NCBI GenBank assembly: GCA_002726235.1
Contig: PBSN01000007.1
Span: forward strand, 41,813-105,812
DNA from: Nitrospiraceae bacterium
Lineage (GTDB): Bacteria; Nitrospirota; Nitrospiria; Nitrospirales; UBA2166
DNA: 64,000 nucleotides
Direction: 5' to 3'
Part shown: positions 1 to 23,838 of the stretch, in pieces
Layout: each line of letters opens with the position of its first letter
Position numbering within the stretch: the first letter of the stretch is position 1
Notes under the pieces: generated by a model
Told to the model about the DNA's origin: nothing
Database searches by the model: none
What the model saw: the letters and a program-made list of their open reading frames with translations, nothing else
Position numbers and translations under genes: made by a program

Positions 1-2
1 GT

Positions 3-722
3 GGGACTGGTATTGGAAAAGCGATAGCTATATGTTTTGCAGCAGAAGGTGCGCGGGTGATGATTGTTGGTCGGCGGAAAAGTCCTTTGGCCGAAACCGT
101 ATCCGAGATTCATTCGCATGGGGGGCAGGCTGCGTATGTGATTGCAGATTATGCGCAGGTGAAACAGGTGAAGGAGTCGATTGCTGCGACAATATCTACA
201 TTTGGGACGCTTGATATTTTGGTGAACAATGCCGGGGTGGCGGGGTTTAAGCCTATTCTTGAGGTGACTGAAGAGGATTATGAGTACCAGACAAGCATCA
301 ATCTCAAGGGTCTGTTGTTTGCCACCAAGTTTGCGATTCCTCTGCTTGCTTCCCAGGGAGGTGGTTCTATCGTGAATATCTCATCCGGTGCGGGATTGAA
401 GGCGGTGCCTTTATCGTCCGTCTATGGGACCACGAAGGCAGGAGTGGTTCATCTCACCAAGATCAGTGCCCTCGAGACAGCCGATAAAAACATCCGAGTC
501 AATTGCATCTGTCCAGGGTTTATCGAAACGCCCATCTTTGACACGTTCATTCCAAAGGATCAATTGAGGGCATCAAAAGCCAGTTTTAGCGAGATGACTC
601 CGTTGAAACGAATGGGGCGTGCGGATGAAGTTGCAAAGGCGGCACTCTACCTCGTATCCGAAGATGCCTCATGGATGACAGGTAATGTGGTGACCTTGGA
701 TGGGGGCCTGAATATCGCATAA
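3..722 (+). CDS. SDR family oxidoreductase, 5'-truncated by window edge
   Basis: Frame open from base 3 reads GTGIGKAIAICFAAEGARVMIVGRR; NNAG, YGTTKAG and C-terminal TGNVVTLDGG are SDR signatures. Confidence 0.93.
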   Translation, partial: GTGIGKAIAICFAAEGARVMIVGRRKSPLAETVSEIHSHGGQAAYVIADYAQVKQVKESIAATISTFGTLDILVNNAGVAGFKPILEVTEEDYEYQTSINLKGLLFATKFAIPLLASQGGGSIVNISSGAGLKAVPLSSVYGTTKAGVVHLTKISALETADKNIRVNCICPGFIETPIFDTFIPKDQLRASKASFSEMTPLKRMGRADEVAKAALYLVSEDASWMTGNVVTLDGGLNIA

Positions 723-729
723 TTTTTGT

Positions 730-1179
730 ATGAGCCGCGCTGTCCCAAAGGGGTTGCTGAGTGTGTTTGCGTGTGGGGTCATGTTATGTGCGATCCCGTC
801 TTTGGCCACCCAGAAGAGTTTTCAATCGACAACAATTTCAAACATTGCGAATGATCCTGGTGCCTATGACCGCAAAAAAGTTGCTGTCTCTGGGAAGATT
901 GTGAGTTTGCAAGTGCTTCGATCCTTTCGAGGGGCTACTTACGTTTCCATGGTGTTGATTGATGAAGACCAAGTAGATTCCCTGCCTGCTTTGACGGTTC
1001 TCTTCTGGCCATCCCATCCCTTGGCGATGGGGGATGTCGTGACTATTGAGGGGCGCTATCATGTGCAATGGAGATTTGGCGGGCTTGAACATGATCATTT
1101 CGTCGACGCTAGTAAGGTGGTGCGTGAAGGTGAAGTTGAATTACCGTCTGCCTCACCGTCTCCGCGTATTCAGTTGTAA
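730..1179 (+). CDS. Hypothetical exported protein, possibly OB-fold-like
   Basis: ORF with N-terminal signal-like hydrophobic segment; DPGAYDRKKVAVSGKIVSL...GDVVTIEGRY resembles small periplasmic OB-fold proteins. Confidence 0.6.
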   Translation: MSRAVPKGLLSVFACGVMLCAIPSLATQKSFQSTTISNIANDPGAYDRKKVAVSGKIVSLQVLRSFRGATYVSMVLIDEDQVDSLPALTVLFWPSHPLAMGDVVTIEGRYHVQWRFGGLEHDHFVDASKVVREGEVELPSASPSPRIQL

Positions 1180-1197
1180 CCGATTTGCTTTGAAGGT

Positions 1198-1869
1198 ATG
1201 GATTGGACACGAGAAGAACTTAGTGCATCGGTGGTTGCGTATATCGAAATGCGTGACTTCGAGCAGCGTGGTGAAAAGTTCGTTAAAAAACGATTCTACG
1301 AGGCACTAAGCGAGCGATTCGATAGGTCTCCAAAGGCATTCGAGTATCGAATGCAAAATATCTCCTACGTCTATTCTGTCTTAGGAAGGCAGTGGGTTAG
1401 TGGTCTAAAACCCGCAAAAAACGTTGGTGCAAACGTTCTCCCCGTCATTGAGGAACTGATTTTCCAACACGAAGGCGTCATATCCACTCCGAAAGTAGAG
1501 TTTGAAGAACAGGTCTCCAAACTGAGGCGGGAGAAAACTCTCCCCAAACCGCAGGGAAGCAAGTCCCCGCAAAAACAAAGCAAGGAGACTACATCCTACG
1601 ACAGAGACCCAGAGGTAGTAGCGTGGATTCTCAAAAAATCAGGTGGTATCTGTGAGAGTTGCGAGAACCCCGCACCTTTTGTGAAACCTGACGGGGACTT
1701 CTATCTCGAAGTTCACCATCTTCGCAGATTGGCAGATGGTGGAAGTGACACTGTGACCAATGCAGTGGCAGTTTGTCCTAACTGTCACAGAGAATTGCAT
1801 TACGGCAGCAACAGAGAAAATGCACTAAAACACCTGTATCTTGTTATGGAGAGATTAGAGCGGGAGTAA
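1198..1869 (+). CDS. HNH endonuclease
   Basis: CESC...LEVHHLRRLADGGSDTVTNAVAVCPNCHRELHYG is a classical HNH motif. Confidence 0.9.
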   Translation: MDWTREELSASVVAYIEMRDFEQRGEKFVKKRFYEALSERFDRSPKAFEYRMQNISYVYSVLGRQWVSGLKPAKNVGANVLPVIEELIFQHEGVISTPKVEFEEQVSKLRREKTLPKPQGSKSPQKQSKETTSYDRDPEVVAWILKKSGGICESCENPAPFVKPDGDFYLEVHHLRRLADGGSDTVTNAVAVCPNCHRELHYGSNRENALKHLYLVMERLERE

Positions 1870-1943
1870 TTGAAATGAGAACATACCGAACAATTCAATC
1901 AGGCACTCTGTAAGGGTTAAATTATCTTTGTAGAGACAATCAT

Positions 1944-2621
1944 TTATTCGACAAGATGACCGCGGGCAATCCAGTGGCGATCGTCAGGGCAGGTGATGAC
2001 AAAGTGGCCCAATCCGGATTCGGCTAATTGGGCTGAAACCTCTTCGTGGGTGAAAGCAGCTAGCATAGAGTTGTAGAAATCGCGGCGAAGGATTTCCGGT
2101 TCGTGATATGCGTACTGCTCAACGATGGTTTGAGCGATTGTTGTCGATTGAGGGCGGGAGAGATCCATGATGAGAACGGGTGCAGAGGGCTTTGCTAAGC
2201 GTGTGATCGTGGTCCAGAAATCCATAGGGCGGGGAAGGTGGTGCAGCAAACTATTGGAGATGACGGCATCAGCCAGGTCAGGCAAAAAAGTTCTTTGGAT
2301 TGTTTCACAACGTAACTGGATGCAATCGTGTAGCTGCGCGGTGGTGATGGCTTTTTCTCCAAGCTGGATCATTGGACGTGAGGCGTCGATGCCAATAACG
2401 CGACAGTCGGGGAGTGCTTGGACAAGCCGGATTGGAATATCCGCTGGGCCACATCCGAGGTCGATCACGGATCCAGAGAGGAAGTCCGGAAAACGCCGAC
2501 GAAATTCATTGATAAAATATTCGTTTTCTTTTGAGAAGTCTGCTTGTGCGTATGCCTGCGCCTGGTCCGGATCGTCCATGAATTCTGGCTCAAGCACACG
2601 TTTCATTTCACGGAATTCCAA
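1944..2621 (-). CDS. Class I SAM-dependent methyltransferase
   Basis: VIDLGCGPADIPIRL motif I, DAVISNSLLHHL motif IV. Confidence 0.88.
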   Translation of the reverse strand: MEFREMKRVLEPEFMDDPDQAQAYAQADFSKENEYFINEFRRRFPDFLSGSVIDLGCGPADIPIRLVQALPDCRVIGIDASRPMIQLGEKAITTAQLHDCIQLRCETIQRTFLPDLADAVISNSLLHHLPRPMDFWTTITRLAKPSAPVLIMDLSRPQSTTIAQTIVEQYAYHEPEILRRDFYNSMLAAFTHEEVSAQLAESGLGHFVITCPDDRHWIARGHLVE

Positions 2622-2904
2622 CAGTCAATGCCATCTAACGTTTGATCTGGGATTACCTAGGTTTGTGGGTAGGATGCCCGTAGCATCAGGGGTGACGTAG
2701 TAAATAAAGCAAGTGGCTGCTCTTGGGAAAGGAGTGCCTTGCCTGGTCAATAATCGATTTGGTCAGTTGAAAGAGTTGTATCAGGATTCATGGGGATTCG
2801 TGGAGTCCCTTCTGTCTCCAGTGCCATCGGGACGTTGTAATTGGCAATGGCAACAGCGGCATCAATTGTAGCGTGGCGTATCATGATTGGGTTTTTCTGC
2901 TGAT

Positions 2905-3264
2905 TTATAGTTCGTCACCAAACGTATTCCATGACCATCTTCGGTTCTGTTCCAACAAAATATTTGAGCGGGCGTGCATTTCCGACATGCGTTGATAGTT
3001 TTCCTTCCGCTTCAGATTCAAATGTGGATTTGTGAGGTTCTGGTTGATTCGGATGTCATTATCCACGTGTAACGCGTCTTGCTCAGGCTAGTATAGCAGG
3101 GTTGCGTTTTGATCGATGATGCTGGCGAGGTCGTCATATGCGTTGAGAGCGAACACATCTGCTCGAAATCCTGCGATGAGGGGTGGAATGGGTGTGTAGG
3201 ATGCGGGTATTTCCATGGAAGAGGCTTTGGGGAGAAGAAAGAGCCGTTGAGGTGGTAGTATTTC
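2905..3264 (-). pseudogene. Possible decayed CDS with an in-frame TAG
   Basis: Manual reading: EILPPQRLFLLPKASSMEIPASYTPIPPLIAGFRADVFALNAYDDLASIIDQNATLLY*PEQDALHVDNDIRINQNLTNPHLNLKRKENYQRMSEMHARSNILLEQNRRWSWNTFGDEL*; same frame on both sides of TAG at 3088-3090. Confidence 0.3.
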
Positions 3265-3489
3265 AAATTTTCCACAGACTCGGTACTATGCAACGAGGAT
3301 ATATGAACAGTGTAAAGAGGCTAGGCGTTCCATCCATTTTTCTCCAGCCAAGACATTGCCCGATGCCACACACGAAATATCGTCACTCTTTCAATTGATT
3401 GTTTCATTGATTCTATTGCGGGCAAGAAAAGGCGATTTGCGAAGTGTGATTCTCGATGGCACGTTGATTGCGTTTTAGGGGGGGGAGAC

Positions 3490-4614
3490 TTGAAGAGTTC
3501 GTTAATGCGTACAAAGATAAGGGGAATCATGATCCGATTGAGGATAGTGCTGTTCACCCTTGGAGTACTTCTGATTGTTCTCAATGGGTGCAGCCAACTC
3601 GGACCCGGAAGAATTGAAGTAGGCCGTGGACACTATAATGCGGTCGTTCAGCAGACCGACAATGAACAAATGCTTCTCAATCTGGTTCGCCTGCGTTACC
3701 GTGACACGCCGTTTTTTCTTCAGGTAGCAAGCGTGTCTACGAACTTCGAGTTCCAAGTTTCCGCAGATACCAGTGCGTCATTGAATACGGGCCCAGACGT
3801 GTATGGCCTTGGCGTTGCGGGTAAGATGATCGAATCGCCGACTGTCACCTATACGCCTCTGCAAGGGGATCTATTTGTCAAAGAGTTGCTTTCGCCCGTA
3901 AGTCTGTCCACAGTAGTCTTGTTGTACCATTCTGGATGGGCAATTGATCGGATCTTTAACGTCACGATGCAATATCTTAATGGGATTCCAAACGCGCCGA
4001 GTGCGTCAGGCCCGACACCGGATGGGGTTCCTGAATATGCGGTCTTTCATCGGATCACCGATCTTCTTCGGGTTCTCCAAAAGCGGGGGGACGTGACCCT
4101 TTGGCAGGCTGAAGGAGGTGTTCCGGCTCAAAGCATGATTTTGCGCATCGCACCGCGTGCGCTTGATTTACCGGAAGGGAGTCAACTGGTTGAACTCCTT
4201 CGTTTGCCCCCTGGGAAAACCGATTACACGATCACTACCACTGTGGATTCAAGTAACGGCGAGGAAATGAGCGTTGTGATGCGATCATTGATGGCAAGCT
4301 TGTTTTATGTGTCGCAGGGTGTGCAACCGTTGCCTGAAGATGAAACACGTGGTCGTGTCACGGTCACTCGTGATGCCAGTGGCCAACCGTTTGATTGGAG
4401 GCGGGTGACTGGAGAGTTGATGCAGATACATTCAAGTGTGAACCAACCAGAATTTGCGGCCGTACGTGTTCAATACCGTGGAACATGGTTTTACATCGAT
4501 GATTCCGATTTGACCTCAAAGTCGACGTTTGCGTTGCTCATGAATCTCTTTGCGTTGCAGGCTGGCGATGTTCCAGCAACTGCGCCTGTGCTCACACTTC
4601 CTGTCGCTCGATAA
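3490..4614 (+). CDS. Conserved hypothetical lipoprotein
   Basis: Long ORF; hydrophobic leader with Cys in LIVLNGCSQLG (lipobox-like). Confidence 0.75.
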   Translation: MKSSLMRTKIRGIMIRLRIVLFTLGVLLIVLNGCSQLGPGRIEVGRGHYNAVVQQTDNEQMLLNLVRLRYRDTPFFLQVASVSTNFEFQVSADTSASLNTGPDVYGLGVAGKMIESPTVTYTPLQGDLFVKELLSPVSLSTVVLLYHSGWAIDRIFNVTMQYLNGIPNAPSASGPTPDGVPEYAVFHRITDLLRVLQKRGDVTLWQAEGGVPAQSMILRIAPRALDLPEGSQLVELLRLPPGKTDYTITTTVDSSNGEEMSVVMRSLMASLFYVSQGVQPLPEDETRGRVTVTRDASGQPFDWRRVTGELMQIHSSVNQPEFAAVRVQYRGTWFYIDDSDLTSKSTFALLMNLFALQAGDVPATAPVLTLPVAR

Positions 4615-4680
4615 GGTCAGTTGAGGAATAGCTCTGTCCTCCGAAGGCAGAGGTCAGAGGTTCGAATCCTCTCGGGTGCA
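4615..4680 (+). tRNA. tRNA-Arg(CCG) partial/degenerate: intact anticodon arm, T arm and 3' acceptor strand, mismatched 5' acceptor
   Basis: CTGTC-CTCCGAA-GGCAG (anticodon CCG), AGGTC, AGAGG-TTCGAAT-CCTCT, CGGGTGC-A; expected 5' GCACCCG absent upstream. Confidence 0.65.
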
Positions 4681-4883
4681 GCGCACGTTTGGGAACGGGT
4701 GTCTCATCCTGGAGACTAATGCCAAATTGCCTTAGTTTTTACTAGTTAGTATTCGTTTGAAGTGAACCACGAAATTGTGTCGGTGGGGGATGAACCCCTT
4801 GAAAATATTGCAAAATATGCCCCATATTCTTACAATGATGGCTTCCTCTCCAATTATTATCAGTGTAAGGATCACTGGATGTT

Positions 4884-5840
4884 GTGAAACGGACTTTATC
4901 AGGCCGGGTGGTGACGATTCTCTTTGTTATTACCGGTGCGGCTTTTGGGCTTGCGAGTATTCTAAATAGCCTACTTGCACACGCTTTAGCATCGCCTTCT
5001 ACCGTTTCCATGCGCGTGGATTTTCCGCATCCACTACAACAGGCTATTGATATTGATCAGGTTGTACGGGTTATTCTCAGTGGGGACCTGTTTCTGCAGC
5101 CCGAACATCTCAAATCAGCTTCTATCAATGGAGATCCCTTATCGGACTCTTCTGGTTATGAGATTTCATCGTCTGGAGAGATCGTGACACCCGATGGACC
5201 TATTCCGCTTCGTCTGATGGGCACGGTCGTTGGACCTCCGCGGCTGACCTATGCGATTATCGAGTCTGATGATGAGGGACAGCGGCTGTATCATCTCCAC
5301 GACATGGTTCTTGATGTGGCAAAAGTGGTTCGGATCGTGCGGAATGAAGTTACTGTTGAGGTGGGGGGGGTACCGGCGTTACTGCGGACGGAATTCGAAC
5401 CCGCGCGCTCGAGCTCTGAATCCCAACCTAGCGCTTCAAGTACGGCATCGATCTCATTAAGAGGATCCAAAGCCATCGTCGTGGCCCCGCGAAAATCAGC
5501 GCGGAAAGGGAAAAAATTAAAGCATCGATTAACGTTAGACCGTAAGGAGGTTGACGCAGCGTTTGCCAATCTCCCCAAGCTTCTGACGCAAGCACGGGTG
5601 ATGCCTCATTATGCCAGTGGGAAAATGGCTGGGTTCCAAGTGGTCTCTGTGAAATCAGAAAGCCTGTTCGATCGTATTGGGTTGCAGTCTCAAGATGTGC
5701 TGAAGCGAATCAATGGGATGGAAATCAAAGATCCATCGAGATTCCTCAGTGCGTTTCAGCAGGTGAAGGAAGAGGAAACAATTACTCTTGACCTCGTTCG
5801 GCAAGGGAAGTCAAATACCTTCGTGTACGAGATTCGGTAA
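4884..5840 (+). CDS. gspC: Type II secretion system protein GspC with C-terminal PDZ-like domain
   Basis: N-terminal TM, HP-like region, GFQVVSVKSESLFDRIGLQSQDVLKRINGMEI; first gene of gsp operon; GTG start. Confidence 0.85.
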   Translation: MKRTLSGRVVTILFVITGAAFGLASILNSLLAHALASPSTVSMRVDFPHPLQQAIDIDQVVRVILSGDLFLQPEHLKSASINGDPLSDSSGYEISSSGEIVTPDGPIPLRLMGTVVGPPRLTYAIIESDDEGQRLYHLHDMVLDVAKVVRIVRNEVTVEVGGVPALLRTEFEPARSSSESQPSASSTASISLRGSKAIVVAPRKSARKGKKLKHRLTLDRKEVDAAFANLPKLLTQARVMPHYASGKMAGFQVVSVKSESLFDRIGLQSQDVLKRINGMEIKDPSRFLSAFQQVKEEETITLDLVRQGKSNTFVYEIR

Positions 5841-17117: not shown

Positions 17118-17284
17118 TGATGATGGCGTATGGAATTTTGGGGTACTGATGTCATAGGAGATTGAGCTCGCAAGCGTGGTGTTGGACGATCAGGCGAATG
17201 AATTTGGAGGTCGGCGAGTTGATGATGTGATAGTCGGAGAACTACGCCGGTGATTAGGGGTCTGATGTGGACAGGGAGGATGTC

Positions 17285-17947
17285 ATGACGCGTGAACTTA
17301 CATACCAACATGCCATGAGAGATTTGGTGAATTTGTATGCGGAAATTGATCATCTGACGATGGAGTGCTGTGCTGCATGGCTTCCGAAGGCTCCAGATCG
17401 TCATGCGCAACTTGAAATGGCAGAACAGATTGGAGAGGAACGAAATCACTATCTTTCCCAAGTTGAGTGGCTCAATTGTCATGCTGGAGGGCACGCCTCG
17501 ATTGTGCTGCCGTCGTGGGCAGATAGCCTTCGGACGTTAGTAAATGGCATGCAATGGCCGGAATACCTTGCGTGTGTCCATCTTGCGATTGAGGGTGTTG
17601 GGATTGCCTTAGTCGAGCGCGTAGCGCGCGACGCTGATCAGGGTGTAAAGGATTGTCTCGCACCATCCTTGCGAGACGAAGGGGGACATGCGAGTTTCGG
17701 AGTGCGTCAGTTGGAGCAATTGCTTCAGAGCGTTGATGGTAAGAAGCGCGAGGAGCTTAAACGACGGATTATTGCGAGTGTTACGGCGATTGCTCGATTG
17801 GCCAGTTCGTTGCCTGTCACATCAGCACATTGGGAGGCCGTTGGGACGTCGACGGAGGAACTCCGTGATATTGCTGCTCAGCGGCTAGGAACATTACTCT
17901 CGCCGCTTGGTATTTCTCAATCGGTAAATCTCTCAGCATCAGCGTGA
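17285..17947 (+). CDS. Ferritin-like hypothetical protein
   Basis: Helical ORF with repeated E/H residues (MAEQIGEERNHYLSQVEW; DEGGHASFGVRQLE). Confidence 0.6.
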   Translation: MTRELTYQHAMRDLVNLYAEIDHLTMECCAAWLPKAPDRHAQLEMAEQIGEERNHYLSQVEWLNCHAGGHASIVLPSWADSLRTLVNGMQWPEYLACVHLAIEGVGIALVERVARDADQGVKDCLAPSLRDEGGHASFGVRQLEQLLQSVDGKKREELKRRIIASVTAIARLASSLPVTSAHWEAVGTSTEELRDIAAQRLGTLLSPLGISQSVNLSASA

Positions 17948-18385: not shown

Positions 18386-18414
18386 TTGACACACGTAAGA
18401 CGCACGTCTATAGT
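18386..18414 (+). promoter_or_regulatory. Near-consensus sigma70 promoter upstream of the OMP-like cluster
   Basis: TTGACA - 17 bp (cacgtaagacgcacgtc) - TATAGT. Confidence 0.6.
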
Positions 18415-18636
18415 CGCGCTGATTGAGTGAGATAAATTACAAATCTGAAGGAATGTTGTGAGATGGATCATACTTTGAGGTGTCTGTTGTTAATAAAAAC
18501 GGGAAAGACGGTGGTTCATGGTTGATGAGGTAACGAAGGAAAGGAGTGGATCCATGACCAGATGTATAATCCGAAGATATTCCACAAGGTGTAGCTCAAG
18601 TTGATAGTGTGCAATCCTAGACGGGAGGATCTCAAA

Positions 18637-19425
18637 ATGGAAAGAGCGAAATGGAAGACTATGGTGCTGCTCGTGGCGCTACTTTCCCCGCTTCTCTTCT
18701 TCGCTGCTCCCCCCAACGCGTCGTGGGCGCAGTTGCCCACCGAGATCAATGGTTTGGTCAAACTGAAGGGTGGGTTTGCGGCTCTCGAGAACAATCGATC
18801 TGGTGAAGCCTTCACAGACTGCTTTGCCATGGGATCGCCTGCCTGTAACGCTCCAGGCGCGACGCTTAATGACGGCACTACAGGGTTTAATGTTGGAGCT
18901 GGGTTGGATCTTCCACTCTGGCTGTTACCCTGGGGGCATGTTGTTGTTGCCGAACTTGACATAGGATTTTCAAAGTTCAGTTCCGGCAAGAGCTTTTTGC
19001 AGCTGATCGAGAATGGGCCGACTACGCTTGGTGGGGCAACCCCATGCGGTAGTCCGCGGTGTGCGACCGGGACCAAACCTGGGTTCCCAGGGCGTCCCCA
19101 AGAGCCAGGCGTTAGGCATGTCAATGTATCCACGGTCAATGCGGGGATCAGTCCGAAGTACCGAATGGACACGTTGTTTGGGGATGACCGGAAGTTCAGG
19201 CCATGGATTATCCCGGTGGGTTGGGAGCTCCAGGTCTTTAGTCCCCCGCCGAATTCCATGCAGATGTGGGAGATTGGTGGCGTGACTGGAGTTGGTATGG
19301 ATGTCCACGTATGGGAACGTATTTGGGTTGGTGTTGAAGGCCGGTACCACTACCAGTACACGGATCATACGGGCATCGACGGGAATTGGTTTACAGCTGG
19401 GGGATATGTAGGACTCTCATGGTGA
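18637..19425 (+). CDS. Outer membrane protein-like paralog 1
   Basis: MERAKWKTMVLLVALLSPLLFFAAPPNASWAQLP signal peptide; beta-rich; C-terminal GGYVGLSW. Confidence 0.8.
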   Translation: MERAKWKTMVLLVALLSPLLFFAAPPNASWAQLPTEINGLVKLKGGFAALENNRSGEAFTDCFAMGSPACNAPGATLNDGTTGFNVGAGLDLPLWLLPWGHVVVAELDIGFSKFSSGKSFLQLIENGPTTLGGATPCGSPRCATGTKPGFPGRPQEPGVRHVNVSTVNAGISPKYRMDTLFGDDRKFRPWIIPVGWELQVFSPPPNSMQMWEIGGVTGVGMDVHVWERIWVGVEGRYHYQYTDHTGIDGNWFTAGGYVGLSW

Positions 19426-19499
19426 GGGGTATCTCAAACATGAGCCAGCTCATGGCACCGAAAATGCCGCAAAGCCTTGAGACACGGGAGGATTTCACA

Positions 19500-20216
19500 A
19501 TGGAAAGAGCGAAATGGAAGAAATCATTGTTGCTCTTAGCGCTAGTAATCCCGCTTCTTTTCGTCTTGTCGTTCCCCCAGACCTCGTCAGCACAGTTGCC
19601 TTTCCATGTGAATGGAAACTTCTTCTTTCAGGCTGGGGGTAAGTTCCTTATGAACGATAGGGCGAATGAGCCGTTCACGGACTTCTTTTCGGGTTCGACG
19701 GGAACGGAGCCAGCGGATAATACCGCGGGCTGGTATGTCGGAATGGGTATTGACATGCCGCTCTGGGAACTACCGTGGGGAGATGTCATCGTTGGAACCA
19801 TCAACATTGATGTAGGTCATTTTGACCAAGCTGATAAAACGTTTTTAACCGCGCAGGGCTTGCCGTCGCTAACTGCTCCGGGTCGTGGACAAGATCTGAA
19901 GCAACAGGGTGGGTTGACGACGATGGGCATCATGGTGCACCCGAAGTGGCGCATTGCGGCACTTTCGACGGAGGTGAACGGGAAACTTATTCAGCCGTGG
20001 ATTATTCCCTTCGGATTTGAAGTGCAGGCATTCGCACCACCGACAGCTGGGATGAACATCTTTGATGTGGGGTCAATTTTTGGTGTCGGCGTTGACATGG
20101 TGTTGACGAAGCGGTTGGTGGTCGGTATCGATAACCGGTGGCATGTTGGCACCGGCCAGTCTCGTATTGACACACTGAATACGACCGTTGGGGGATACGT
20201 CGGAATCCGCTTCTAG
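19500..20216 (+). CDS. Outer membrane protein-like paralog 2
   Basis: MERAKWKKSLLLLALVIPLLFVLSFPQTSSAQLP leader; ANEPFTDFFSG, WIIPFGFEVQAFAPP; C-terminal GGYVGIRF. Confidence 0.8.
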   Translation: MERAKWKKSLLLLALVIPLLFVLSFPQTSSAQLPFHVNGNFFFQAGGKFLMNDRANEPFTDFFSGSTGTEPADNTAGWYVGMGIDMPLWELPWGDVIVGTINIDVGHFDQADKTFLTAQGLPSLTAPGRGQDLKQQGGLTTMGIMVHPKWRIAALSTEVNGKLIQPWIIPFGFEVQAFAPPTAGMNIFDVGSIFGVGVDMVLTKRLVVGIDNRWHVGTGQSRIDTLNTTVGGYVGIRF

Positions 20217-20281
20217 CGGGACGACGTCCTAAGTAACCAAGGATGACCTGCAACATGCGACATATACGGGAGGATTTGACA

Positions 20282-20971
20282 ATGGAAAGAGCGAGATGGA
20301 AGACTACATTATTGCTCTTGGCATGGCTATTCCCGCTTCTGTTCATCCCGGTCTTCCCCCAGCTATCATGGGCTCAGATGCCGGTTGAGGTGAATGGATC
20401 AACCTACTGGGGAGGCGGAATTGCCGGCTTGATCAATGATCGAGCAAATGAAATGTTTACTGACTTAAACTCGTCTCTCACGGGGAGCAAGCCAAATGAT
20501 GACACGCTTGGCTGGTACGTGAGTACGGGTATGGAAATCCCAATCTGGGGCCGCTCAAATGGACACGTCATTTTGGGCGAAATTAACATGGATTTTAGGA
20601 AGTTTGGTGGTGAGGAGGCGGGTTTCCCGGGCAGTGGGGGCGGTAAAGGTTCGGGTTTCGAGATCCATAGAGTCGACTTGATTCAGATTTCAGCCAGTTT
20701 CTCGCCGAAATATCGTTTCGATAACTTTCACTCATCTGGGCGGATCTGGCCGTGGATTATTCCAGTTGGCTTAGAGCTTGGTGCGATAAGCCCTCCAGGG
20801 CCTGACGTCAATCCGATTGATATTGGTACAGTTCATGGGTTTGGCGTTGATTATATGTTGAACCGCTACTTTATCGTCGGTGTTGATTTTCGGTATCACT
20901 TGGCCTCAGGTATCAATGCAATTGAAACCAGCAGCTTCACTTCAGGTGTGAAGGTCGGGCTACGGTTCTGA
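20282..20971 (+). CDS. Outer membrane protein-like paralog 3
   Basis: MERARWKTTLLLLAWLFPLLFIPVFPQLSWAQMP leader; NDRANEMFTDLNSSLTG, WIIPVGLELGAISPP; C-terminal KVGLRF. Confidence 0.8.
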   Translation: MERARWKTTLLLLAWLFPLLFIPVFPQLSWAQMPVEVNGSTYWGGGIAGLINDRANEMFTDLNSSLTGSKPNDDTLGWYVSTGMEIPIWGRSNGHVILGEINMDFRKFGGEEAGFPGSGGGKGSGFEIHRVDLIQISASFSPKYRFDNFHSSGRIWPWIIPVGLELGAISPPGPDVNPIDIGTVHGFGVDYMLNRYFIVGVDFRYHLASGINAIETSSFTSGVKVGLRF

Positions 20972-20983
20972 GGATTTGAGGAG

Positions 20984-22336
20984 GTGGTGCTGATGAAACG
21001 ATGGGCTGTAAAAGTTGCGAGATGGAGGGAACCAATCATGAGAAAACATGGGCCAACAACCAGGTTCGGCCCTGGGGTCCGATACGGGCTCTTGGCGCTG
21101 ACTGTGGTCGGTATGATGGTGGGTCCAGTCATTTCTTCAGTGCTGGCGCAAGTTGTCACTCTAACGCCAACCGAAGGGGGGGCGGCTCTGGGTGTTCAGC
21201 CTGGGACTGCGACCATCGATGTTAAGCAAAACGGAAATGCGAAAGTTACATTTGACCTTTCTGGGATACCGGCGCCAAACCCAGGCCGTGAGTGTCGTGG
21301 TCTGGACAGTGACCAGTCATTGTTGTCCGGGTGGTTTCGGTTTATCAATGACGCTGGGGAATCCACGGTTAATGCGGATAACCTAGTCGAGCGGTGGGGG
21401 CCTCCACCAACTATTATTGAGGATGCTCCTGAAGGGTGCGTTGCGGAATATCCGATTTCGCGAGGGAGAAAGCCGTTCGACCCAGAGAATCCTGAGAGTA
21501 CAGATCGAGGCGGAGGGACATCTGGCTGTTATGGGAAGGCTCCAAACGTGATTACGTGGAGTCCGATAGCCAAATCGACGGCTGGCTTCACTGCCGGGAT
21601 GGGTGGAACTTCGCGTCCTGATCCGAACGGGTTTGTGTCTGATATAGACGGCGATGCGAATGCAACCCTGAAGACCAATTTTGACCCTACCGATGGGGCA
21701 ACGACACCGTTGGTTCTGAATCCATGGCATTTTGGATCGAGTGTTCCACCGTTCTGGGCGCAATGTACGAATCCAAAGGTCACTCCCGCACCGCCGGTCT
21801 GCCTTGCTGCTGGAGGAAAGCTCCGGGCGAATGACAGCGGGTATAAGCGGGTATATGAGAACAAGCCATTCAATGACCATGTTGGCCCGAATGGCGAACG
21901 CATTCCGTCGAGAATACCGGGTATCGGGGTGATCGGTGAGATGAATACTTTTGGCGAAGTTGATGAGAGGGCATATGGTCGAGGCCTTATTTTTGATATC
22001 AACGGACCCTGTGACAACAATCCTCTCGCCAGAACGCCGTGTGGGCCTGGTGGGTTTGGAAAAGAAGGTGGTCCTCCGGCACATCCGGCTGGGCGAGATA
22101 TGATGGGCTTCCCGCCGAAGCCTGGGAGTGCAAAGGGTCAGCGGTTCCAAGTTCCTGATGAAAAGGGACGGCAAACTCTTGCTCGAGCAGAGGCGACGCA
22201 CATATCGGTTGTTCTGCACAACGATTGTTTGACGCATGGTCACATTCCTGGGCATGGGCCAGGGATTGGACTTCCTCCACCGGCGCAAGGGTTGCCGGAT
22301 GATTTTGTCGAGATCTTGAGAGGAGAAATACGATGA
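20984..22336 (+). CDS. Large secreted hypothetical protein, Gly/Pro/Cys-containing
   Basis: Signal-like RYGLLALTVVGMMVGPVISSVLAQ; C-terminal CLTHGHIPGHGPGIG. Confidence 0.75.
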   Translation: MVLMKRWAVKVARWREPIMRKHGPTTRFGPGVRYGLLALTVVGMMVGPVISSVLAQVVTLTPTEGGAALGVQPGTATIDVKQNGNAKVTFDLSGIPAPNPGRECRGLDSDQSLLSGWFRFINDAGESTVNADNLVERWGPPPTIIEDAPEGCVAEYPISRGRKPFDPENPESTDRGGGTSGCYGKAPNVITWSPIAKSTAGFTAGMGGTSRPDPNGFVSDIDGDANATLKTNFDPTDGATTPLVLNPWHFGSSVPPFWAQCTNPKVTPAPPVCLAAGGKLRANDSGYKRVYENKPFNDHVGPNGERIPSRIPGIGVIGEMNTFGEVDERAYGRGLIFDINGPCDNNPLARTPCGPGGFGKEGGPPAHPAGRDMMGFPPKPGSAKGQRFQVPDEKGRQTLARAEATHISVVLHNDCLTHGHIPGHGPGIGLPPPAQGLPDDFVEILRGEIR

Positions 22337-23316
22337 AACGTATGATAGTGGTCATGTTGGTCGGGTTTGCTCTTGTGATGGCTGCTCCGGTCGGCTCCCT
22401 GCTTGGATCGTCGAGCGACGCTTTGGCCGCGGGGCCAGGGGAAAAAATGATCAAGATGTTCAAGGCGCCCTTCCTGAGCCTTCCGCTCCGCGGGTTTTAC
22501 TATCCACCCGCAGTGGAAACTGACAACTTTGCGACGGTCAAGGTGTTTGAGTCTGGACAGGGAGTGCGACACTCTGAGTTGAGGTATACGTTTAGAGGGT
22601 TAACGGCTAACACGGTGCATACCTTGTGGTTTGTCAACCTGTTTATGATTACGCGTCATAGCGCGTTCCCTGGCGTTGCTCCACCAAGTCCGCAGGGGAA
22701 TCCCTACTTGCCGTGGACCTCTGGGACGGCTGGTGTAGGGTATGATGCAGATGGCGACGGTGTTCTGACTTGTGGGGAGGGTGTTAGAGGCTTTGACCCC
22801 GTTCTTACCACGGAAGAACCGACGCCGGGTAACATGAATGGTGTGGCCTTTGGAACTGGGCAGTCACCGACGTTTGACCAGAATTCCTTCTGTACAAATG
22901 AATGGGGACATGCAAATCCAGTGATTCGGTTGCCCTACGACATTACGACAAAAAATGTCCCGGCACAGACGCCTCCTCTTTTCCAAACGGAGGTAGTCGA
23001 GTTTCCAAATGGCGAAACTCTGAAGCACCGACATGTTATCGATATTTCATACAAGCGTCTCTACGATGAGAATCCAGACTCTCCTCGGTTTGGTTTTCAA
23101 AAGGTTGATAACCTTGGACGGCCAATTTTTCAGACTTGGAGGCTCATTCCGATGGTGGTCTGTACCCACTATGATGGAGGTATTGGCATGACCCATGGCC
23201 ATCACCCTGGCAATGGGCCTGGGACTGGTCCTACTCCAACGGCGTTCGGGACGGATCATGAGTGTTTGATGGCGGCGATGCCAACCACTCAGGCACGAGA
23301 CACACAAGAGGATTAG
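22333..23316 (+). CDS. Large secreted hypothetical protein, partner of preceding gene
   Basis: Signal peptide MKRMIVVMLVGFALVMAAPVG; DADGDGVLTCGE; MTHGHHPGNGPGTG; 4-bp overlap with upstream CDS. Confidence 0.78.
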   Translation: MKRMIVVMLVGFALVMAAPVGSLLGSSSDALAAGPGEKMIKMFKAPFLSLPLRGFYYPPAVETDNFATVKVFESGQGVRHSELRYTFRGLTANTVHTLWFVNLFMITRHSAFPGVAPPSPQGNPYLPWTSGTAGVGYDADGDGVLTCGEGVRGFDPVLTTEEPTPGNMNGVAFGTGQSPTFDQNSFCTNEWGHANPVIRLPYDITTKNVPAQTPPLFQTEVVEFPNGETLKHRHVIDISYKRLYDENPDSPRFGFQKVDNLGRPIFQTWRLIPMVVCTHYDGGIGMTHGHHPGNGPGTGPTPTAFGTDHECLMAAMPTTQARDTQED

Positions 23317-23358: not shown

Positions 23359-23389
23359 ACGGCCTGCGTAACGGTGTTACGCAGGCCGT
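23359..23389 (+). terminator. Strong stem-loop, putative terminator of secreted-protein operon
   Basis: ACGGCCTGCGTAAC-ggt-GTTACGCAGGCCGT, 14-bp perfect stem followed by TT. Confidence 0.7.
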
Positions 23390-23436
23390 TTGGCGTTGTT
23401 AGCGAGTTTGTCACGATCAGGAGGGGTTCTCGAGAG

Positions 23437-23838
23437 GTGGTTGCGTTGATTGTCAGTCTCGTTGTTTTGACGTTTCCGATCTCAGTCGGTGCCTATCATA
23501 CCCCTGATCATTTTTGTGAACAGTGTGTTGCTGAGAGTTGCGGTGGTGGGGCTTCCGATCGGAATTATTTATGGTGTGTTTCTTCAGCGTGCGGCATCGA
23601 GTGTGAGGTTTGGGTGGCGGATAGGTTCGGGGCGACTGATGGGTGTGTGGCGCAGTGTGATGCGATGCTGGAAACTTGCCAAATGGCCTCGGAAGACTCC
23701 GGTGGCCTGATTGATGATTATTGTGCGGATACCGCTCAAGCGTGTTACGTTGATTGTGAAGGTGGAGTAGAAGACGAGGATGATATGTATATCGAGGAAG
23801 GTGGGGAAGACGGATACGCTGTCTTGGATGAGGAGTGA
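23437..23838 (+). CDS. Small secreted Cys-rich protein with acidic tail
   Basis: GTG start after AGGAGGGG; signal MVALIVSLVVLTFPISVGA; many Cys; tail EDEDDMYIEEGGEDGYAVLDEE. Confidence 0.6.
   Translation: MVALIVSLVVLTFPISVGAYHTPDHFCEQCVAESCGGGASDRNYLWCVSSACGIECEVWVADRFGATDGCVAQCDAMLETCQMASEDSGGLIDDYCADTAQACYVDCEGGVEDEDDMYIEEGGEDGYAVLDEE

Follow-up and report, generated by a model that had tools for sequence, protein, structure and literature searches.

Exported proteins encoded alongside outer-membrane barrels are a kind of system that is already known, and the locus described here is of this kind. Its nearest described counterparts are the barrels of a Nitrospirales-wide family, which are homologous to the three barrels of this locus and occur near genes for MnxG-like multicopper oxidases and CopD-like proteins. 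More limited resemblances involve the OMP_b-brl family (PF13505), DUF4438 proteins (PF14505/PF20999, TM1086), CHRD domains (PF07452), and the calcium loop of EF-hands.

UBA2166 is a rarely sampled marine family represented by four genomes in a 2025 comparison, in which it alone among Nitrospirales clades lacked nitrite oxidoreductase; this comparison counted 544 family-specific genes, and a sulfur role is suspected (PMC12342949). The four UBA2166 genomes compared here presumably are the same four. A conserved, family-specific outer-membrane operon would provide a concrete handle on the cell-surface activity of these organisms.

A five-gene operon

The window, meaning the whole stretch of 64,000 nucleotides that was analyzed, derives from Nitrospiraceae bacterium assembly GCA_002726235.1 (PBSN01000007.1, positions 41,813-105,812, forward strand). 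Three barrel genes and two further genes, termed ORF1 and ORF2, form an operon at 18637-23316 on the plus strand, with the following features.

18386..18414, plus strand: probable sigma-70 promoter, TTGACA-N17-TATAGT, agreeing with 11 of 12 consensus positions
18637..19425, plus strand: barrel 1, of the small outer-membrane type and with a signal peptide; the listed ORF opens at 18601, but the ATG at MERAKWK is the likely start
19500..20216, plus strand: barrel 2; the listed ORF opens at 19386, but the ATG at MERAKWK is the likely start
20282..20971, plus strand: barrel 3; the listed ORF opens at 20243, but the ATG at MERARWK is the likely start
20993..22336, plus strand: ORF1, predicted exported protein of about 447 aa, with eight conserved cysteines and C-terminal HNDCLTHGHIPGHGPGIG
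22232..22270, plus strand: motif THGHIPGHGPGIG in ORF1
22333..23316, plus strand: ORF2, predicted exported protein of 327 aa and probable paralog of ORF1, with calcium-loop-like DADGDGVLTCGE and C-terminal THGHHPGNGPGTG
22744..22779, plus strand: loop DADGDGVLTCGE in ORF2, which reads DANGDGVLTCGE in locus L004
23191..23229, plus strand: motif THGHHPGNGPGTG in ORF2
23360..23388, plus strand: hairpin (13-bp stem, perfectly paired) plus a short T run, a probable operon terminator kept in locus L003

ORF1 lies directly after barrel 3, and ORF1 and ORF2 overlap in the sequence ATGA. The mechanically called start of ORF1 is a GTG at 20984, but the ATG at 20993 is favored because GGAGG precedes it and because MKRW/MERW aligns in all three relatives. 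When co-occurrence of the five genes was checked, the same operon was found in the source genome (G000), in G198 (locus L003), and in G200 (locus L004), which supports the view that the genes constitute a single transcription-like unit, conserved across these three related genomes. The promoter is likewise conserved in three genomes: L004 and L080 retain its hexamers and TATAGTCGCG but differ in the spacer. The hairpin at the end is conserved in two genomes, and termination there is only presumed, given the short T run.

The operon is present in all three UBA2166-family genomes in which the locus is assembled. In the fourth genome (G199), the contigs break off on either side of the locus; this genome is not part of the count, and the absence of the pair from it was discarded as evidence. 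The three carriers of ORF1 and ORF2 belong to a single genus; the records are UBA2166 and OFTM238. No operon of this type was found outside the family in any genome searched. Similarly, profile searches of 396 sampled Nitrospirota genomes gave nothing for ORF1 or ORF2 beyond weak, mostly short matches; those inspected were due to chance or to DUF4438, and the inspected matches to the ORF2 profile fell mostly antisense to response-regulator genes and look accidental. One match in the source genome was dropped because it sits over groEL. Searches of plasmids and viruses yielded nothing credible. Across 85,462 species genomes, a scan that requires exact peptide words recovered only the same two relatives, such that distant homologs may exist elsewhere.

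A type II secretion system (T2SS) gene set, in which GspC, D, E, F, J, L, M, and K were recognized, lies just upstream of the operon, in matching order in G000 and G198. The preliminary description had linked this system to the downstream genes, and its presence and adjacency are real, although the operon is a separate unit. This arrangement bears on the idea that ORF1 and ORF2 are T2SS substrates encoded in an island of T2SS cargo, a proposal that would fit either of the functional readings considered below. Both proteins carry signal peptides and the neighboring secretion genes keep their order in G198, but two other genes (at 17267 and 17961) and the operon's own promoter intervene, adjacency is the only link, and barrel relatives elsewhere occur without T2SS genes alongside. 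Overall, we regard cargo status as rather unlikely.

The barrels and their relatives

The presence of three barrel-like genes upstream of the pair, as described previously, was borne out; the genes are paralogs, and the putative barrels represent a tandem expansion within a family that spans the Nitrospirales. A profile built from them has matches in 97 of 148 Nitrospirales genomes, in most cases a single one, and comparisons with other genera give E values down to 2e-45. OMP_b-brl matches are weak for barrels 1 and 3, where they are confined to the C-terminal strands, and extend over nearly the full length of the relatives, but all of these barrel matches fall below the Pfam cut-off.

Twenty barrel loci were fetched, 18 from other genera and two from this genus. 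A MnxG-like multicopper oxidase gene lies near the barrel in 11 of the 18 loci from other genera and a CopD-like gene in 14 of them, counts that may run low at the ends of contigs or fetched stretches. Complete copies of the oxidase are about 1,640 aa; the protein scores far under the curated equivalog cut-off, and thus it can only be called MnxG-like. Unlike the usually single barrels of other Nitrospirales, the barrels here are arranged in tandem and joined to ORF1 and ORF2 in an operon that lacks both oxidase and CopD genes. None of the 20 fetched loci has T2SS genes or ORF1/ORF2 beside the barrel relative, and no oxidase is found near the single other barrel of the source genome (L046).

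Giant MnxG-like oxidase genes near a barrel gene are seen in L061 (positions 2-4930) and also in L057, L058, L062, L060, and L047. The giant-oxidase loci additionally carry FGE-sulfatase-domain, CopD-like, and Crp-like genes.

Family assignment of ORF1 and ORF2

The two proteins agree with their original description as products of adjacent, overlapping genes that have signal-peptide-like N termini (judged by inspection) and carry THGHIPGHGPGIG and THGHHPGNGPGTG near their C termini. These are the only two matches to the motif in all six frames of the window. No family had been recognized initially, and searches of Pfam, NCBIfam, and PDB with ORF1 and ORF2 likewise returned no matching family. 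AlphaFold2 runs from three-row alignments gave pLDDT values of 27.7 and 26.1 for the pair, and hence no reliable structure.

Over about 22 residues (HxDC..GHxPG), ORF1 resembles DUF4438, with RAEATHISVVLHNDCLTHGHIPG aligning to RGAVTIGVVVHSDCLRAGHGPG of true DUF4438 proteins, which raises the prospect that ORF1 is a divergent, TM1086-like member. However, the match to DUF4438_C (PF20999) scores 14 bits, where the cut-off is 27, covers 23 of 124 positions, and was selected from about 25,000 families and 396 genomes. The N-terminal domain (PF14505) has no match in ORF1, whereas real members match both domains, and the PDB search did not link ORF1 to TM1086. Furthermore, ORF1 differs in having a signal peptide and another layout, with no further similarity, and ORF2 has no DUF4438 match. 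Membership in this family is very improbable, and the identity was rejected on the basis of the sub-cut-off score, the missing N-terminal domain, and the lack of a match for ORF2.

The likeness to CHRD proteins is a loose impression of an exported beta-sandwich, and neither protein matched CHRD in Pfam or in a search of the source genome. The only CHRD match in that genome is an exported protein with two CHRD domains (L066, G000:C8:208158-208979). Multicopper-oxidase homology was also rejected, since Pfam detects no Cu-oxidase domain in the pair and scores against 11 Nitrospirales multicopper oxidases are mostly at shuffle level, the best being an isolated 56 (maximum of 49 in 40 shuffles). 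Judged by these comparisons, the pair belongs to no known family and constitutes a new one.

The EF-hand-like loop noted previously in ORF2 has fared less evenly. The spacing DxDxDGxLxxxE is kept in L003 and L004, and both DADGDGVLTCGE and DANGDGVLTCGE conform to the 12-residue EF-hand loop (D1, D/N3, D5, G6, hydrophobic 8, E12); a loose form of this pattern occurs once more in the window, among about 128,000 positions over six frames. However, the loop fails PS00018, taken as the 13-residue EF-hand pattern of PROSITE, because position 13 is G. Also unlike in EF-hands, flanking helices are not demonstrable.

Relationship and conservation of the pair

ORF1 and ORF2 probably are paralogs. Their local alignment scores 81 (shuffles: mean 41, sd 6.5), and an hhalign profile comparison gives an E value of 8.6e-6. 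Much of this similarity is owed to the motif, because without it the C-terminal piece scores only 24, a value reached by 54 of 500 shuffles. The ORF1 of L004 nevertheless aligns with the ORF2 of the window (score 77, P about 5e-4) and with its own ORF2 (score 78, P about 3e-4), where the middle block aligns; the comparison of window ORF1 with L004 ORF2 is not significant (P 0.07). In the two significant alignments of L004 ORF1, a middle block and a C-terminal block come in unchanged order. The motif DNA of the two genes is identical at 28 of 39 positions, such that very recent copying of the motif is a needless explanation.

Identity to the relatives in L003 and L004 is 95% and 47% for ORF1, and 97% and 65% for ORF2. 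Despite the 47% identity, all eight ORF1 cysteines align in matching positions in L004. The dN/dS values relative to G198, about 0.09 for ORF1 and about 0.05 for ORF2, indicate purifying selection. The shared THGHxPGxGPGxG motif is present in both proteins as originally stated, but it is poorly conserved: the 598-aa ORF1 of L004 keeps HxDCLTHGxxPG, loses GPGxG, and reads CLTHGVVPGNPMQW, and the C terminus of L004 ORF2 is either lost at the contig end or diverged. Because the motif is kept only in part, its suggested role as an assembly element is weak.

A block of low synonymous divergence

In comparison with G198, dS is 0.16-0.35 from barrel 2 through ORF2 and 0.62-0.82 in the neighbors on both sides (gspK was left out). 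In G198, barrel 1 is divided between two contigs, and the dS of its first part is 0.64. Correspondingly, positions 19150-23250 share 88-98% DNA identity with L003 against about 82% in the flanks, and where ORF2 ends, identity drops to about 79%. The simplest reading suggested by these values is that the block from barrel 2 to ORF2 was exchanged as a unit. Synonymous constraint or assembly mixing are the alternatives; codon bias in this comparison is weak (ENC 52-61).

Possible function

The description of the locus as an undescribed secreted or outer-membrane assembly has held insofar as the pair has no known family and the five-gene unit is conserved, and an assembly is the natural reading of such a unit. 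We favor, at a probability of roughly one half, a lineage-specific outer-membrane or extracellular module in which elements of the pair may bind a divalent metal. The three small paralogous barrels would sit in the outer membrane, as their homology implies, and the disulfide-rich, Gly/Pro-rich ORF1 and ORF2 would be exported via their signal peptides and act with the barrels at or outside this membrane. The shared C-terminal HxD..THGxxPG and the calcium-type loop of ORF2 most likely would bind the metal, which could be structural or part of a working site.

Metals are pointed to by the MnxG-like and CopD-like neighbors of the barrel relatives, although these neighborhoods may serve as a lead and not as proof. 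This association belongs to the relatives of the barrels and not to the operon itself, the L046 barrel has no adjacent oxidase, and L004 retains just part of the metal-like motif. The tie to copper-oxidase neighborhoods elsewhere in the Nitrospirales nonetheless gives a testable direction. A more specific version, namely a new metal-handling or extracellular redox module that combines the barrel triplet with a paralogous pair sharing a His/Asp metal site and that is specific to non-nitrifying UBA2166, is doubtful.

A structural surface coat without metal chemistry fits the data nearly as well. In that case, ORF1 and ORF2 would be extracellular coat, matrix, or adhesin proteins anchored by the barrels, with calcium or another metal serving only for stabilization. 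The Cys-rich and Gly/Pro-rich composition, the large insertions tolerated between ORF1 orthologs (450 versus 598 aa), the calcium-like loop in ORF2, and the resemblance of the low-dS block to exchanged surface loci all suit such proteins. However, strong purifying selection and a conserved His/Asp element exceed the needs of a bare scaffold, and none of the repeats typical of adhesins were seen in the pair. A purely structural role is possible but on balance less likely than the possibly metal-related module, which is preferred.

Genes flanking the operon

The gene at 17267-17947, which follows GspK, has a faint DUF455/ferritin-like match below the cut-off and is conserved in G198. At 23374-23838, 3' of the hairpin, a small exported Cys-rich protein is encoded, with its real start probably near 23440; it is kept in L003 and L069 and has a higher dN/dS than its neighbors.
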